From Akkermansia muciniphila (GTDB lineage Bacteria > Verrucomicrobiota > Verrucomicrobiia > Verrucomicrobiales > Akkermansiaceae), in NCBI GenBank assembly GCA_945888515.1, contig CAMDAD010000009.1, positions 62,001-126,000 on the forward strand: a stretch of 64,000 nucleotides of DNA, given 5' to 3'. The translations under genes were made by a program, and so were the position numbers. Below are positions 1,714-59,573 of the stretch, piece after piece (positions within the stretch are counted from its first letter, which is position 1; every line of letters begins with the position of its first letter). The notes under the pieces are model-generated. The model was not told the origin of the DNA. It made no database searches and saw nothing but the letters and a program-made list of their open reading frames with translations.

Positions 1714-3570
1714 ATGGCCTCCTACACCGAAGACGACATCAAGAGCCTCGACTGGCGTGAGCACATCCGCATGCGCCCGGGCATGTACATTGGCAAGCTC
1801 GCCGACGGATCTTCCCCCGATGACGGCATCTACATCCTGCTCAAGGAAGCCATCGATAACTCAATCGACGAGCACATTATGGGATTCGGCAAGGAAATCC
1901 GCATCGATATCGATGACGAGGGTCGCGTGGAAGTGCGTGACTTTGGTCGTGGTATTCCGTTAGGAAAGCTCTACGACTGCGCCGCGCAGATCAATACAGG
2001 AGCGAAGTATGACAGCGAGGCGTTCAAAAAATCCGTAGGCCTCAACGGCGTCGGCATCAAGGCAGTAAATGCGCTTTCCACCTTCTTCGAAATCCAAGCC
2101 TGGCGCGAGGGACAGACGAAAGCCATCGAGTTCTCGCAGGGCAAGGTCACGCAGGACATGAAAAACCCGCGCGCGGAAGAAGCACCGAATGGCACACGCC
2201 TGTGCTTTGACATCGACCGCACCATTTTTCCCGCAAAGACAAAATTCCGCGAGGCCACGGTGGAAAAAATGTGTCGTTACTATTCCTACCTGAACCCGAA
2301 TCTCACGCTAGTTTTTAACGGAAAAAAATTCCGATCCAAGGATGGTTTGCTCGATCTGCTGCGTGAGGAGATGGAAAAAGCACCGCTCTATCCGCCCATC
2401 CACCTTGTCGGCAAGGACATCGAAATCGCCTTCACTCACAGCGAGGAAACCAGCGAAGAATACTACACCTTCGTCAACGGACAGAACACGTCCCAGGGCG
2501 GCACGCACTTGCAGGCTTTCCGCGAAGCTATCGTCAACGTGGTGCGCGGCTTCTTCAAAAAACAATGGGAACCCGCCGATATCCGCGCAGGCATCGAGGC
2601 CGCGATCTGCGTGCGCATCGAGGAGCCGGTCTTTGAATCGCAAACAAAAACCAAACTCGGCTCCGCCACCACCAAACCGAACGGCGGCGAATCCCTGCGC
2701 ACGTTCATCGGTAATTTCCTCAAGGAGCACCTCGATAACTACCTCCACAAAAACCCCCAATCAGCCGAGGCGATCCAAAAACGAATCCTCATGGCCGAGC
2801 GCGAGCGTAAGGACATGAAGGGCATCCAGAAGCTCGCCCGCGAGCGCTCCCGCCAGGCCAAGGTCCACAACAAAAAACTCCGCGACTGCCGCATCCACTT
2901 CGATACGAAACACAAGCGCCGCGAGGAATCCACGATCTTCATCACCGAGGGCGACTCCGCCTCCGGTTCGATCACCAAGTCCCGCGATGTCGAAACACAG
3001 GCGGTCTTTTCCCTGCGCGGCAAGCCCTTGAATACCTTCGGCCTCGCCCGCAAGATTGTCTACGAAAACGAGGAGTTCGCCCTGCTGCAAGCGGCGCTCA
3101 ATGTCGAGGAAGGCATCGAGGAGCTGCGCTACAACCGCGTCGTCATCGCCACCGATGCCGACGTCGATGGCATGCACATCCGCCTGCTCTTGCTCACGTT
3201 TTTCCTGCAATTTTTCCCCGAGCTGATCCGCGATGGTCACGTTTACATTTTGCAAACGCCGCTCTTCCGCGTCCGCAATAAAAAGGAAACAATCTACTGC
3301 TACAGCGAGGACGAGCGCGTGAAGGCGATTGCCAAACTCGGCAAGAACCCCGAAATCACCCGCTTCAAGGGCCTGGGAGAAATTTCTCCCGATGAGTTCA
3401 AGTACATGATCGATGCCAATATGCGCCTCGATCCCGTCAGTTACATCGAGGGCAAGGGCGTGAAGGAACTGTTGACTTTTTATATGGGTAAAAACACGCC
3501 GGATCGTCAGGAATACATCATCGAAAATCTGCGCGAAGACGTGGACCGCCAGATCGCGGTGTCTGCTTGA
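1714..3570 (+). CDS. parE: DNA topoisomerase IV subunit B (ParE-type)
   Basis: ATPase subunit of a type IIA topoisomerase, 618 residues, which with its partner A subunit decatenates and relaxes DNA. The GHKL ATPase domain shows the Asn/Glu motif [11 protein letters not shown] (about residues 44-54), GRGIPLG, and the lid motif [14 protein letters not shown]. The Toprim domain has [10 protein letters not shown] (about 410-419) and the metal-binding [10 protein letters not shown] (about 479), followed by RFKGLGE. The N-terminal wording ([19 protein letters not shown], then GSSPDDGIY) is closer to the ParE of Bacteroidetes-type bacteria as I remember it than to GyrB, and the length fits ParE (about 620-630) rather than GyrB (about 800). 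No parC or gyrA is in the window; folK follows 4 bp downstream. The ATG has no Shine-Dalgarno motif. Confidence 0.9.
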
Positions 3571-3574
3571 TGCC

Positions 3575-4078
3575 ATGAGTCACCTCGCCGTCATCGCCCT
3601 CGGCTCGAATCTCGGCGAGCGCCGCGCCCACTTACAACAAGCCTGCGCCCAGCTCCGGGCACTGGCCCTCGAAGGGACGTGGCAGCAGTCGAGCATCTAC
3701 CAAACCGCCCCCGTGCTCTGCCCGGATGGCTCCCCGGATTTTTACAACGCCGTGGTCTCCTTTCAATTCGAGGGCAGCGCCACCCAACTCCACGCGCAAA
3801 CCCGCGGCATCGAACAGGCCCTAGGCCGCGAGCGCAGCACGATCAACGCCCCACGCACCATCGACATCGATCTGTTGGCCTTTGGTCAGGAAATCATTGA
3901 CGAGCCCGACCTGCAAATCCCCCACCCCCGCCTCCACCAGCGCCGCTTCGTGCTTCAGCCTTTGGCAGAAATCCACCCGGACCTGCTCCTCCCGGGCCTC
4001 AGCAACTCTATCTCCCGGCAACTCCAAGCACTCCACTCGCCCGAGCCGGAACTGATGCGAATGGATGGCACGTGGTAG
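3575..4078 (+). CDS. folK: 2-amino-4-hydroxy-6-hydroxymethyldihydropteridine pyrophosphokinase
   Basis: HPPK, 167 residues, the normal length. It transfers pyrophosphate from ATP to 6-hydroxymethyl-dihydropterin in cytosolic folate synthesis. The N-terminal ALGSNLGERRAHL is the pterin-binding start of the family. The signature runs ALGRERS...APRTIDIDLLAFG, with the paired Asp residues that bind the two magnesium ions, followed by the usual PHPRLHQRRFVLQPLAEI. The start lies 4 bp after the parE stop, so the two genes are probably co-transcribed. It converges on the minus-strand gene ending at 4083, with only 4 bp between stops and no visible terminator. Confidence 0.95.
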   Translation: MSHLAVIALGSNLGERRAHLQQACAQLRALALEGTWQQSSIYQTAPVLCPDGSPDFYNAVVSFQFEGSATQLHAQTRGIEQALGRERSTINAPRTIDIDLLAFGQEIIDEPDLQIPHPRLHQRRFVLQPLAEIHPDLLLPGLSNSISRQLQALHSPEPELMRMDGTW

Positions 4079-4082
4079 CAGT

Positions 4083-4853
4083 TCACCGATACGGCGGATA
4101 CTCCGGCATGACGAAGGGGTGGATGCTGCCGTCAGCGCGGGGAATGAGGAGGAGGTAGCGGCGGTATTCGGTTTTACCGGGCCAGCGGGTGTCGCAAAAG
4201 GGTTCCCACTGGTCGCCCAATTGTTTTGCTAGGGTGATCTGTGCCATTTCGGCGGCTTGGTCAATGCCCGGCTCGATGATGGTTGATTGACCAGGCGCCA
4301 GCTTTGCTGACTTCCCACCGAAGAGACCGGCCACGGTGTGCGTGGTGAAATTTTGCACGAGAATTTTGCCATCTCCAAAGCGTTGTTTCTGTGCGTCAAT
4401 CAGAATGATCCGATAGGGTGACGCTTTCGGGGCACTATTGGTCACCAGGATCGCGGTGGCGGTATCGGAGTCGGGCAATTCAAATTCGATGATCGGTTGG
4501 ACGAGGAATTCTTCCTTGATCGGCGTGGCAGGACCGTTAAAGCCGCCCGCAGCCTGTGGAGGGGCGGGATCGATGGCGAGAGCCAGCTTACGCGTGCCGA
4601 AGCCCATCGCATCGGTGATGTAGGAAGAAGAAACTGTCAATCTCCAGCGTGCCAACCATCCCTGTTCCGTCTTTTCAGCTACGACTAGTTGTGTCGCCTT
4701 TTCTGCAGCTTCTACGCAAAGAAAACGCAGGCTGTGCGGGGCCTTTTTGACGGTGGCTGCGGGTGCTGTCGGAGTGGCTGGCTGAGCCGCAACGGGCCAC
4801 AGCGCGAGCATGGTTAAGCAGAGAATCCATTTCATGTGAGCAGAGAGAGTCAT
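4083..4853 (-). CDS. Secreted protein of unknown function
   Basis: A 256-residue protein I do not recognise. The N-terminus (Met-Lys-Trp-Ile-Leu-Cys-Leu..., then Ala-Ala-Gln-Pro-Ala) is a Sec signal peptide with likely cleavage near residue 23-25. A second in-frame ATG at 4835 would give a more typical signal peptide beginning MKWIL. The mature part is beta-rich with no cysteine pairs or catalytic motif that I can name. Its start is only 3 bp after the stop of the giant prepilin-like gene upstream, so the two are probably one transcription unit. That may mean it serves the same envelope or pseudopilin function, but this is inference from position only. Confidence 0.75.
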   Translation of the reverse strand: MTLSAHMKWILCLTMLALWPVAAQPATPTAPAATVKKAPHSLRFLCVEAAEKATQLVVAEKTEQGWLARWRLTVSSSYITDAMGFGTRKLALAIDPAPPQAAGGFNGPATPIKEEFLVQPIIEFELPDSDTATAILVTNSAPKASPYRIILIDAQKQRFGDGKILVQNFTTHTVAGLFGGKSAKLAPGQSTIIEPGIDQAAEMAQITLAKQLGDQWEPFCDTRWPGKTEYRRYLLLIPRADGSIHPFVMPEYPPYR

Positions 4854-20438: not shown

Positions 20439-20771
20439 CAGGAATAATTTTTGCGAAATCAACTTGCCAGAGTGGATGGTTGGCGGTAAGCTTAGGAACT
20501 GCTGTGTGCGTTCGTATAAGGTTTGCAAGCCCGATCCGATGCGTTATATCCGGGGCGCGAACCGTCCGATGATGTCATGCCTTCCTAGGAAGACAAATTC
20601 TGGCGTTAGACCCCACATTTGGAGAGCTTACAGGAACGAGGCTCTTTGCTCCTTGAACGGCACAGCGGTATTTTTTCTTTTTTTGTGTTCCATGTTTTTC
20701 TCCAACCAATCGCGATTTTTGATTCCCTTCGCATTTCCTAAACAATTTTCTGAAATTTTCTGTTTGTTGTG
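20439..20771. other. Intergenic region before rpmH, no gene seen
   Basis: About 420 bp separate the DUF1501 stop from rpmH. A 12-bp palindrome (CTTCCTAGGAAG) lies near 20582. The right half is rich in T and A. An in-frame stretch of about 100 codons on the plus strand has no recognisable content. I looked for DnaA boxes, because rpmH is often near oriC, and saw none. Confidence 0.5.
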
Positions 20772-55619: not shown

Positions 55620-57257
55620 TCAGGACTCAATGAATTCTTTTTTCTCCACTGCAGCCTTTCCCCCACTCGTCTTGCGATCTAACGGATCCTCCGTTTTTGT
55701 GTAGCTGATCCGGCTATGCAACATGCTGCGCAGCGTATTGGCGAAACTATCTCGCACTTTCGTTAATTCGCGCAAGGTCAGCGTGCAGTCATCGAGTTGA
55801 CCATCCGCCCAGCGCTTGCGCACGATGTCATCCACGAGTCCGCGGATCTTAATCGGGTTCGGTTTTTTCAGAGTGCGGGAAGCGCTTTCGATTGCATCAG
55901 CCAAGCTCAAAATGCCCGTCTCCTTGGACCTTGGTCGCGGGCCTGGATAGCGGAAATTTTTGTCATCGATCTGTGGCAAGTCCTCGGCATTCTCCAATCC
56001 CTTGCCCACCTTATCCTCCTCCTGAGCCTTCTGCTCTTGGCATTTTCGATAGAAAAAATATACCATCGAGTCGCCATGATGCTCGAGGATGGCATCAATG
56101 ATACGAGGGTTCAGCTTGTGTTTCAGCGCCATGTCCACGCCATCCTTGACATGAGCGATGATCACCAGCGCACTCATCGTAGGTGTAAGGGCATCGTGCG
56201 GATTCTCCATCCCATCGGCTTGATTCTCGATGAAATACTCCGGTTTCTTCAACTTACCCACATCGTGAAAATACGCACAGGCACGACACAGTGCCGCATT
56301 AGCACCGATGGCTTCCGCGGCCGATTCCGCCAATGATGCCATCACGAGACTGTGGTGAAACGTCCCAGGGGCGTCCAATTGCATTTGCTTGAGCAGCGGG
56401 TGATTGAGATCGCATAACTCGAGCCAACTGATATTGGTCGTTAGAGAAAACGCCCCTTCCAACAAAGGCAGCAGTCCACTCACGATGAGTGCCGTGATGA
56501 AACCGACTCCGAAGGCAACGGCAAACATGGCACCGTCAGAAAGCAGTCGATCTTGCCCAGCCAATGCGGACGGTTGGAGGATCTCTCCGTAAATGATGGC
56601 AAATAGCAGCGAGAGTCCTCCGGCATAAATCCCCGCCCGCAGCAACTGCGCCCGTTTGCGAACACGACTGGTCAAAATCACCACCGCCATGCAGCATGCG
56701 AGACTCATGATCAGATAGACCACCATCTCGGAGGCTGGAACCAGCAATGTGCCAGCGATGCTCACAAAAATCGCACTAAAGGTTCCCGCCCTGCGCCCCA
56801 AGAGTATTGAGTGCACCATCGGCGCGAGCGCGAAAGGAATTAGCAGCAGTTTATACTCACTGCGCCAATGATAAGTATCCACCCCGTATGAAATCAAACA
56901 AACCAGACTCAGATGCAAAAGCAAACCTCCCAGCAAAAGTAATACTACACCATTTTTCCGCATCAATTCACGATGATTCAGTCGCAGCATGATGACCGCA
57001 GTGACTGCCACCACGGCCGCGCTAATCACTTGTTGCCAAGCATGGGAAGCCCACTTATCGATATCCGCATGGGGTTGGCGCACGACCAGTGCGATCAAAT
57101 AAACCACAAAGGCCACGATGAGAAGCCAGTGCACCCACTGAGCACTGCCGAGGAAGGCGGTAAAACGATCTTCCGCATCATAAACACGACGTTTTTTACC
57201 GGAAGATAGCCCTTGCTGAGCCAACTTCCATCGTTTGAACGCATCCCAAAATCCCAC
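55620..57257 (-). CDS. pgpH: HD-domain c-di-AMP phosphodiesterase (PgpH-like)
   Basis: A 545-residue membrane protein with about seven helices between residues 40 and 300 (the 7TMR-HD arrangement) and a C-terminal cytoplasmic HD domain. Metal and catalytic residues are visible in GTFHHSLVMASLAESAAEAIG, RACAYFHDVGKLKKPEYF (His-Asp pair), MSALVIIAHVKDGVDMA and AILEHHGDSMVYFFYRK. PgpH cleaves c-di-AMP to pApA. Firmicute PgpH is about 700 residues with a large extracytoplasmic 7TM-7TMR-HDED domain before the helices; here that domain is absent, since the first helix begins near residue 40. It starts at a GTG (57255-57257), sits next to ybeY as in other phyla, and a 16-bp palindrome lies about 100 bp upstream. 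Confidence 0.9.
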   Translation of the reverse strand: MGFWDAFKRWKLAQQGLSSGKKRRVYDAEDRFTAFLGSAQWVHWLLIVAFVVYLIALVVRQPHADIDKWASHAWQQVISAAVVAVTAVIMLRLNHRELMRKNGVVLLLLGGLLLHLSLVCLISYGVDTYHWRSEYKLLLIPFALAPMVHSILLGRRAGTFSAIFVSIAGTLLVPASEMVVYLIMSLACCMAVVILTSRVRKRAQLLRAGIYAGGLSLLFAIIYGEILQPSALAGQDRLLSDGAMFAVAFGVGFITALIVSGLLPLLEGAFSLTTNISWLELCDLNHPLLKQMQLDAPGTFHHSLVMASLAESAAEAIGANAALCRACAYFHDVGKLKKPEYFIENQADGMENPHDALTPTMSALVIIAHVKDGVDMALKHKLNPRIIDAILEHHGDSMVYFFYRKCQEQKAQEEDKVGKGLENAEDLPQIDDKNFRYPGPRPRSKETGILSLADAIESASRTLKKPNPIKIRGLVDDIVRKRWADGQLDDCTLTLRELTKVRDSFANTLRSMLHSRISYTKTEDPLDRKTSGGKAAVEKKEFIES

Positions 57258-57422: not shown

Positions 57423-57647
57423 TCAGGCGGCGATATCGTAAATCTCCGCGATCTTCTTGAAGATCCGGTCGCGACGCTCGCGGGCTTTTTCCACATCCTT
57501 TGTTTTGAGAGAAAACCGCATTCTTTCTGAAGTAGCATCTGATTTGTGTATCGTCACATGGCACCACCAAATGCCGCGGTTATTCCAAAGATGATGATTT
57601 TCATTTCCATCGTTGATTTTCATAACGATTTTAGAAGTCTTCTTCAT
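57423..57647 (-). CDS. Small integrase-arm-like protein, copy 2
   Basis: A 74-residue basic protein (ATG at 57647; an earlier ATG at 57665 is possible). The central motif is NENHHLWNNRGIWWCHVTIH, then SERMRFSLKTKDVEKARER and RDRIFKKIAEI. Two or three beta strands followed by a long charged helix, with a Thr-Lys-Asp-x-Glu-Lys-Ala-Arg turn, is the layout of the N-terminal arm-binding (AP2-like) domain of tyrosine integrases, here without any catalytic domain. It is a close paralogue of the gene ending at 57732, with about 43 of 69 aligned residues identical. DNA binding is inferred. Confidence 0.65.
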   Translation of the reverse strand: MKKTSKIVMKINDGNENHHLWNNRGIWWCHVTIHKSDATSERMRFSLKTKDVEKARERRDRIFKKIAEIYDIAA

Positions 57648-57686
57648 GCCAGCAACGAATAACACACTTGTATGACAACAGCAACT

Positions 57687-57724
57687 AAAAAAACAAAAAA
57701 AAGTACAGATCTAGCAATCAGTAC
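57687..57724 (-). terminator. Terminator between the twin small genes
   Basis: On the minus strand GTACTGAT pairs with ATCTGTAC (one mismatch) around TGCTAG, followed by TTTTTTTTGTTTTTTT. It ends transcription after the small gene ending at 57732, so the second copy must have its own promoter. Confidence 0.7.
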
Positions 57725-57731
57725 AGTCGAG

Positions 57732-57974
57732 TCAAGCCGCGCAATGCGGCATATCGCTCAATTGCTGAAAAATCCGATCACGGCGAATGCGTGCTTTTTC
57801 CAACTCGCGTGTTTTTAGCGAAAAGCGCATGCGTTTGGCAGTTCCGTCCGATTGATGAATGGTAAGATGACACCACCAAACACCACGGTTGTTCCACAAA
57901 TGATGATTTTCGTTGGTCTCATTCACGCGAAGTGAAAGTTTGGAAAATTGGAGTGTCATCTTGTCTGTATTCAT
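57732..57974 (-). CDS. Small integrase-arm-like protein, copy 1
   Basis: An 80-residue protein (ATG at 57974; a longer frame to 58064 has no similarity to the paralogue). It repeats the pattern of its neighbour: NENHHLWNNRGVWWCHLTIH, then AKRMRFSLKTRELEKARIRR and DRIFQQLSDM, and ends Cys-Ala-Ala. The Trp-Trp-Cys-His strand and the basic helix are strictly shared. It lies between the cystathionine gamma-synthase-like gene and a strong terminator. Stand-alone arm-like domains could act as small DNA-binding regulators; no target or mobile element is identified. Confidence 0.65.
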   Translation of the reverse strand: MNTDKMTLQFSKLSLRVNETNENHHLWNNRGVWWCHLTIHQSDGTAKRMRFSLKTRELEKARIRRDRIFQQLSDMPHCAA

Positions 57975-58064
57975 AGTGCGCTCCCAGAGCATAGATCTCA
58001 CCCCGAAGATGTCCATGTGACATTGCGCAAAAGAATTGTGTTTTTGCGCAACTCCTGTGATCAC

Positions 58065-59573
58065 TCAGATCTCATCCAATGCCGCCTGAAAAGTATCACA
58101 GATTTTCTGCGATCCCTCTGTACCGACGCTGACACGCAACAAGTGACCAGGCACACCGCAACCCTCAGCCCACGGAAGTTCGCGATAGTGCGCTAACTGC
58201 GTGTAAGGACAGATGAGAGTGAAAGGAGTGCCGAATGATGGCCCTTTGCAAACTTGCAGCATATCGTAGAGTCTGGCGGTTTTTTTTGCCGCTTTGAGAG
58301 TGAACGAGAGCAACCCTCCATAACCGCCCTGCGGCCTGCGCAAAGCATCGTATTCCGATCGACAGGTAACAGACGGATGCCAGACCTTGTCGACAGCGGG
58401 ATGCGATTGCAACAACCCAACCAAGGCCAATGCACTTTCATTTGCACTGCTCCACAACGGTTCACTGTGACGAAGATTCGATAATAGCGCGAGACCATCC
58501 CCCGCATAAAGCGGCGCGCACTCAGAGACCTCACCTGCGAGAGATACTGAGAAATCAGCACTGAAGGGGCTATCCTCGCGCACACAGGCCATGCCTGCCA
58601 TCACATCACCTGCTCCTGAAATCCATTTGGTGAGGCTGGTCGTGACGACATCGGCATAGCGCAGCACATCCACATTACCCGGACAAGCGGTAGAATCATC
58701 AACGATCAACGGCGTGCCGCTCAGGCGACAGGCCTCTGAGATCATGGGCAAGTTCACCGTGCGCAGCAGAGGATTGCTCGGCACCTCAAGGAACACACCC
58801 GCAAATTCCCCCTGGCGCACCCGATGCAGCGCCTCATCCAAAGATTCACCGGAGCCTTGGTTTAGAAACACCACGCCGTTGCCGAACATTTCCTGCACCT
58901 TAAGGCAATCCACATAAGGGAATTCAATCTGTAAGGTTTTTTTGCCCATGCGCAGGCCAGGCAAGCTGCGCAACACCGAGGTGCAGGCCGCCATGCCGCT
59001 GGCAAAAACAAAAATCTGATCCTTACCGACGCCCACAATCTTGCCAATTTTCGCACGCAAGATTTTCGATCGCCCCGAAGGCGCTGAATTACCATCGAGA
59101 ATATCGATCGCTTGGCGACTGCTCACGACTTCACCCGAAAAACGCCAGTAATCGACTGCTACAGCGCTTGCTTTGTCGGGAACAATCAATGCCTGCAAGC
59201 CATGGAAACTCGCGATACGCGCAGCCACTTCGGCGCGCCGTTCCACAAACCGTTGCGCCCGCTGCGCCGAGACCCGCGAGGGAAACAGCACCACTGAGTG
59301 ACCTTCACTGGCCAACTCTTTTTTTGCCACCTCAAACAATCGCTCGACAGCAGGATGTCGGAAAAACCGCGGATAGCCTGCTCGCATCTTACGCACCACT
59401 CTGTCGCGGCCCTCTTCGTAATCGATTACCGCTTTCCAGTTCGGCAAGCAAACCGAGACGGCGTGAAGGGAATCCGGGAGGGCAATGCCCAAGTCTTCTT
59501 CGCTCCACGCTGGATTCTCTATTAGGTTACGCATTGCCGAAAATGGTATAACAGTCGCTTGCTTTCGTGCCAA
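58065..59573 (-). CDS. PLP-dependent cystathionine gamma-synthase-like enzyme
   Basis: A 502-residue protein of the Cys/Met metabolism PLP family. The catalytic domain has the PLP-lysine Lys316 in VTTSLTKWISGAGDVMAG, the Asp of the pyridine nitrogen in PLIVDDSTACPGNVD, and the phosphate loop FASGMAACTSVLRSL. The first 150 residues (LPDSLHAVSVCLPNWKAVIDYEEG and on) form an extra N-terminal domain not found in the usual bacterial enzymes of about 390 residues, but present in fungal-type cystathionine gamma-synthases as far as I recall. The C-terminus (PGHLLRVSVGTEGSQKICDT) is the standard end of the family. Likely role: transsulfuration toward methionine; other gamma-replacement reactions cannot be excluded. 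A start at 59534 is possible. Confidence 0.82.
   Translation of the reverse strand: MARKQATVIPFSAMRNLIENPAWSEEDLGIALPDSLHAVSVCLPNWKAVIDYEEGRDRVVRKMRAGYPRFFRHPAVERLFEVAKKELASEGHSVVLFPSRVSAQRAQRFVERRAEVAARIASFHGLQALIVPDKASAVAVDYWRFSGEVVSSRQAIDILDGNSAPSGRSKILRAKIGKIVGVGKDQIFVFASGMAACTSVLRSLPGLRMGKKTLQIEFPYVDCLKVQEMFGNGVVFLNQGSGESLDEALHRVRQGEFAGVFLEVPSNPLLRTVNLPMISEACRLSGTPLIVDDSTACPGNVDVLRYADVVTTSLTKWISGAGDVMAGMACVREDSPFSADFSVSLAGEVSECAPLYAGDGLALLSNLRHSEPLWSSANESALALVGLLQSHPAVDKVWHPSVTCRSEYDALRRPQGGYGGLLSFTLKAAKKTARLYDMLQVCKGPSFGTPFTLICPYTQLAHYRELPWAEGCGVPGHLLRVSVGTEGSQKICDTFQAALDEI

Follow-up and report, generated by a model that had tools for sequence, protein, structure and literature searches.

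The window (the whole stretch of 64,000 nucleotides that was analysed) carries two small tandem genes, here called A and B, whose products are stand-alone homologs of the N-terminal arm domain of tyrosine integrases. The reading that best explains them, which we hold with somewhat more confidence than doubt, is that they belong to a vertically inherited Verrucomicrobiota family of stand-alone arm proteins, domesticated as small DNA-binding regulators for SAM and methionine homeostasis. Because the gene is under SAM riboswitch control in most relatives, the family seems to be a domesticated regulator of sulfur and methyl metabolism and not phage debris. The first-pass annotation had suggested small transcription factors derived from integrases; descent from an integrase arm stands, and the regulatory role is the likeliest reading, one that we infer.

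Genes A and B and the arm family

The features of the region are the following (window positions).

57423 to 57647, minus strand: gene A, stand-alone arm-type protein of 74 aa, MKKTSKIVMKINDG..., start ATG at 57647; orthologue of the single-copy gene of the sister species
57732 to 57974, minus strand: gene B, tandem paralogue of 80 aa, MNTDKMTLQFSKLSL..., read as the derived copy
57656 to 57684, minus strand: putative promoter of A, TTGCnn-n17-TA(n)nnT with TGTCATA within; footprint over ten genus loci, read by eye
57702 to 57725, minus strand: direct repeat TGTACT-n12-TGTACT upstream of A, candidate operator; kept in genomes G000, G002, G004, G006, G008 and G009
58023 to 58051, minus strand: perfect inverted repeat TTGCGCAAAA-9-TTTTGCGCAA upstream of B, candidate operator from sequence and genus comparison
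58065 to 59573, minus strand: upstream neighbour, PLP enzyme of Cys/Met metabolism, cystathionine gamma-synthase / BesB type (PF01053, E 6e-36)
55620 to 57257: downstream neighbour of A and B, 7TM-HD gene

Genes A and B are separated by 84 bp, and their products are identical at 44 of 70 aligned residues, in good agreement with the paralogues of 75-80 residues sharing 43 of 69 positions that had been described earlier. They have in common the block NENHHLWNNRG(I/V)WWCH(V/L)TIH. Compared with its orthologue in G009, gene A has a dN of 0.023 and a dS of 0.99; the corresponding values for gene B and its G001 orthologue are 0.073 and 1.54, and in several other pairs dS is saturated with dN below 0.1. 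Such low dN relative to dS marks both as coding genes under strong purifying selection. Gene A is identical at 71 of 74 residues to the single-copy gene at locus L018, and gene B occurs in part of the window's genus (G000, G001, G002, G003, G006 and G009); by sequence comparison, A is the conserved copy and B the faster, derived tandem copy. The WWCH core had been called strictly kept and hence selected; the selection is confirmed by dN/dS, but the Cys is not strict, as it varies outside the Akkermansiaceae branch of the family. The near-invariant set across the family is HHLWNN.G.W...H.T, R.R.SL.T and A...RD.

All of 14 diverse family members matched the Pfam family DUF6538 (PF20172; best E 2.2e-5), the two window proteins scoring 20 and 19 bits, under the curated gathering cut-off of 27 bits. 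The family profile aligned to integrase N-termini over 49 columns with an hhalign probability of 98% (E 2.1e-13); the partner consisted of the N-termini of eight frames from the same phylum with integrase-type N-terminal domains, most of them full tyrosine integrases of 350-415 aa. AlphaFold2 predicted for A three strands (20-23, 26-34 and 40-46) and a helix (52-69), with core pLDDT above 90. Integrase arm domains and AP2 domains are known to have this beta-beta-beta-alpha order. Given the predicted fold and the profile match to real integrase N-termini, the designation of a stand-alone integrase arm is right, and the proposed resemblance to the DNA-binding arm of a tyrosine integrase is upheld, as is the lack of a catalytic part: the two proteins have only 74-80 aa, family frames are all short, and there is no C-terminal catalytic domain that would make them tyrosine recombinases or integrases themselves. 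A sequence search against solved structures gave nothing below E 0.7, and Foldseek with VIA-align against the PDB gave no significant match and middling Z values, with no arm or AP2 structure among the matches listed, an absence that does not count against the arm reading.

Conservation was computed for 37 cores sharing less than 80% identity, in an alignment anchored on a motif, so that the first His and the Gly are constant by design and the columns between the two are constrained. Positions 28, 30, 32 and 34 of strand 2 (W/F, H, T, H) and 42, 44 and 46 of strand 3 (R, R, S) are conserved, and positions 29, 31, 33, 43 and 45 are variable in the same cores. This alternation is as expected if, in the modelled sheet, strands 2 and 3 turn conserved residues outward and greasy ones inward.

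In profile surveys, which covered Verrucomicrobiota, the family was found at E<=1e-9 in 112 of 284 Verrucomicrobiae genomes, every time in short open frames, and was missing from 172. It was present in 22 of 38 relatives' genomes, and 90 of 388 phylum genomes gave matches, including a few weak integrase matches; true integrases form a separate weak tail of the search (E 1e-5 to 1e-3). A scan of public-genome contigs with short peptides of gene B, which reaches close relatives only, returned 80 stand-alone loci, including Akkermansia muciniphila, A. glycaniphila, Haloferula, Luteolibacter and Rubritalea. Five genomes (G205, G216 with loci L242-L247, G492, G496 and G502) hold three or four diverged arm paralogues each, and, apart from L243, no copy examined in G205 or G216 has a detectable riboswitch. 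Stand-alone arm-like proteins at L325, L326 and L317 (G281, G336), more distant and with HHLRRNRGCWQLRF-type cores, are possibly another subfamily. On the viral contig L260, a stand-alone arm gene (3983-4291) lies 0.7 kb beyond a 383-aa integrase (2105-3256), perhaps a prophage end beside a chromosomal, host-side arm gene.

A SAM-I/IV riboswitch ahead of the arm gene in relatives

SAM riboswitches usually precede metabolic genes. In the outer relatives of the window, a repeated leader was identified by Rfam as the SAM-I/IV riboswitch (RF01725), several copies scoring above the gathering score. Among the 38 relatives, 9 of 11 SAM-I/IV matches lie just upstream of a stand-alone arm gene on the same strand. 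Among the 388 phylum genomes, a tally combining separate surveys of arm genes and of riboswitches placed 25 of 64 matches closely upstream of an arm gene on the same strand; for the families of the window's class other than its own, the same tally gave 21 of 24. We estimate that chance would put a riboswitch within 300 bp upstream of one of the few arm genes about once in ten thousand. A custom model built from 23 riboswitch-arm leaders recovered nine more arm loci that had been missed by Rfam's fast filters.

An intrinsic terminator stands between aptamer and arm gene in 27 of 39 leaders, and 33 of the 39 contain a stretch of at least 6 nt complementary to the 5' P1 strand of the aptamer, typically CTGATGC inside the terminator hairpin. 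Judged by its sequence, this layout is that of a SAM-OFF transcription switch; with a terminator and an anti-P1 strand in the leader, the arm gene should be expressed at low SAM. The heptamer TATGACA precedes the riboswitch at 26 of 39 loci, compared with 2.6% of control windows. With few exceptions its orientation is the same, and most copies fall into two position classes, 47-51 and 56-63 nt ahead of the aptamer, about one helical turn apart. The heptamer is a candidate operator.

Outside the window's class, genes read from sequence as MetY-type O-acetylhomoserine sulfhydrylase (six loci) and as the SAM synthetase MetK (one locus) follow this riboswitch, so in this phylum it is a genuine methionine-pathway switch. 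Also in other classes, a second family of 150-190 aa, starting NVPxxxRNWAxC and without a Pfam match above cut-off, lies directly behind SAM-I/IV riboswitches (L162, L168, L170, L172 and L176). Three species of the window's genus have a second, riboswitch-linked arm subtype, present as tandem pairs in G003, G004 and G006. At L123 and L131 (G006 and G003) its copies are about 700 bp apart, the second having no riboswitch of its own, and the pair is followed by a conserved gene, MKTKATYRNHPLLPLMQLL....

The window's branch, its upstream regions and the search for targets

The window and its genome gave no SAM-I/IV match with Rfam, and the custom model found none in the window or in the searched Akkermansiaceae loci of the main type. 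The Akkermansiaceae clade without the riboswitch (23 rows of the tree) is nested beside riboswitch-linked genes of sister families, and six state changes suffice for the presence and absence of the riboswitch. The simplest reading would be one loss at the base of the Akkermansiaceae, from counts that cannot orient the change and a short alignment that leaves many forks open.

In the window and at 15 public loci (the window's genus and Haloferula/Luteolibacter-type), the cystathionine-gamma-synthase-like PLP enzyme lies directly ahead of the arm gene; its best NCBIfam models are BesB and CGS, with scores under their cut-offs. In Akkermansia, the arm gene is instead directly downstream of rpmB. 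Among 54 rpmB-arm leaders (L058-L121, with L024 included; for example L092, 3790-3988), 44 carry TTGAAC and GTC[T/C/A] at identical spacing, an arrangement resembling an ECF-sigma promoter in sequence. The pattern TTTTTGAACG-N13-17-GTCT has 38 matches in 950 kb of rpmB-arm loci, counting both strands. A hairpin in the same leader was rejected as not convincing, with a consensus energy of only -2.0 kcal/mol and 2 covarying pairs. Elsewhere in the window, at 20493-20675 on the plus strand, a 6S RNA (RF00013) scores 48.6 bits, just over its gathering score.

Each of the two window genes has its own conserved upstream region, which agrees with the separate transcription units assigned to them in the first-pass annotation. 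The terminator placed between them, however, was not detected by an intrinsic-terminator search; what lies there is A+T-rich sequence that forms the promoter region of A and is conserved across the genus. By eye, the genus loci keep TGTACT-n12-TGTACT, a T tract, a TTGC element and a second element 17 nt on. The putative promoter ends about 8 nt ahead of the ATG, as in a leaderless gene, and was not confirmed by a consensus promoter scan. The 3.36 Mb genome has a single copy of the TGTACT repeat. The perfect palindrome said to follow the second gene is real, but its position had been misread: with both genes read from the minus strand, it precedes B, in that gene's promoter region. It also reads as two direct repeats TTGCGCAAnnnCACA with a period of 21, kept in the genus.

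Genome searches for TGTACT-n-TGTACT and TGCGCAA-n-TTGCGC gave no recurrent second site, and the neighbours of riboswitch-linked arm genes include none that is both metabolic and widespread. No target gene or regulon came out of these searches. The upstream regions of metK and metF have no Rfam RNA and no excess of TATGACA. Ahead of metK (L261-L287) and metF (L288-L310) there is a common SahR/SamR-like palindrome such as ACATATCAAC...GTTGATAT, of the ATC-n-GAT type (compare the SahR/SamR sites in PMC4239095). Because metK and metF carry this palindrome and not an arm-gene motif, the main control of these two genes probably lies with a regulator other than the arm protein. The Akkermansiaceae metK appears divergent from an ArsR-like gene.

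Possible function, alternatives and comparison with known systems

In most lineages, bound SAM would let P1 form, so that the intrinsic terminator stops transcription of the arm gene; when SAM falls, the 5' P1 strand would pair with the CTGATGC of the terminator and the arm protein would be made. The protein would then read DNA through its exposed sheet face (W/F28, H30, T32, H34, R42, R44 and S46) and, once bound, adjust the transcription of target genes. In the window's family, where the riboswitch is absent and the arm gene sits behind the cystathionine-gamma-synthase-like gene, the Akkermansiaceae may keep a related duty by other means. A duplication in the window's genus would have given rise to A and B, each with its own promoter footprint, which suggests auto- or cross-regulation. 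We infer the DNA binding, the targets, the sign of regulation and, for the window copies without a riboswitch, the same role. Tentatively, the scheme may be a two-step SAM relay typical of Verrucomicrobiota, in which the riboswitch gates an arm transcription factor that directs the low-SAM response, and which was later uncoupled in the Akkermansia family.

It is unlikely that the arm proteins are instead general nucleic-acid-binding small proteins, nucleoid-associated or RNA/ribosome-associated, with SAM only throttling their amount. Their very small size, their richness in Arg and His, their extreme conservation, the position behind rpmB in Akkermansia, and weak fold matches that include ribosome-associated beta-alpha proteins (at an uninformative Z) are in keeping with this idea, but control by a single-metabolite riboswitch would be unusual for a housekeeping nucleoid protein, more than half of the class genomes surveyed do without the family, and the conserved residues lie on the sheet face that arm and AP2 domains use to read sequence. 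Quite improbable, too, is a purely local function, with each protein acting on its own promoter and perhaps on the adjacent Cys/Met enzyme gene and having no wider regulon. The private direct repeats upstream of A (in a single genomic copy) and of B fit this, as does the conserved PLP-enzyme neighbour; most lineages, however, have no conserved metabolic neighbour, so that a target in trans is needed.

We regard as very improbable a role in regulating or helping a mobile element or site-specific recombination, as an excisionase-like protein or a competitor for arm sites. The origin in an integrase arm domain speaks for it, along with the tandem pairs of the second subtype and the one member near a prophage-type integrase on a viral contig; yet the family is single-copy and vertical in pattern in many genera, a SAM riboswitch would make no sense for such a function, and no match was found in 50,697 phage or 72,556 plasmid records. 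The earlier suggestion of mobile-element regulators is not supported, the genes being chromosomal and vertically inherited. Remnants of broken integrases can be dismissed: the homology is indeed limited to the N-terminal domain, but dN/dS is far below 1 and the family is stand-alone across the phylum, with its own motif and regulation and discrete from the integrases, so it does not consist only of integrase pieces.

If the SAM-linked regulator reading is correct, an integrase arm domain has become a free-standing cellular regulator across a phylum to which the gut commensal Akkermansia belongs, and the target of a metabolite riboswitch is in this case a regulator instead of an enzyme. The family would gain a concrete signal, low SAM, and would be a candidate for coordinating methionine and methylation in these little-studied bacteria. 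The arm domain and the SAM-I/IV riboswitch are known parts; for the family and the combination, no description was found in the accessible literature. A literature search, mostly without subscription papers, found no paper mentioning DUF6538 and none joining SAM riboswitches with Opitutaceae regulators, and Verrucomicrobia are not mentioned in the main text of the 2010 variant-riboswitch paper (PMC2864571).

Among known systems, the arm family shares with DUF6538 the signature G..[YW][YW]....R(V/I)R.SL.T.....A...RD and a predicted beta-beta-beta-alpha order; it differs in its extra invariant HHLWNN block and, in comparison with DUF6538 integrases, in standing alone without a core-binding or catalytic domain. 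Its predicted three-stranded sheet and helix, with Trp and Arg on the reading face, resemble the known topology of the AP2/ERF domain; AP2 (PF00847) was matched by only one of 14 members, at E 0.11. The aptamers of the relatives match the Rfam model of SAM-I/IV (RF01725), the variant class of Weinberg et al. (2010; PMC2864571). Unlike the usual SAM riboswitches, those of the arm-gene relatives control a candidate regulator, and the window copies have no riboswitch. The expected role of the arm protein resembles that of MetJ, SahR and SamR in linking the SAM level to transcription. Those regulators, however, are ribbon-helix-helix or ArsR winged-helix proteins, whereas in the arm-gene case SAM would be sensed by RNA and not by protein.
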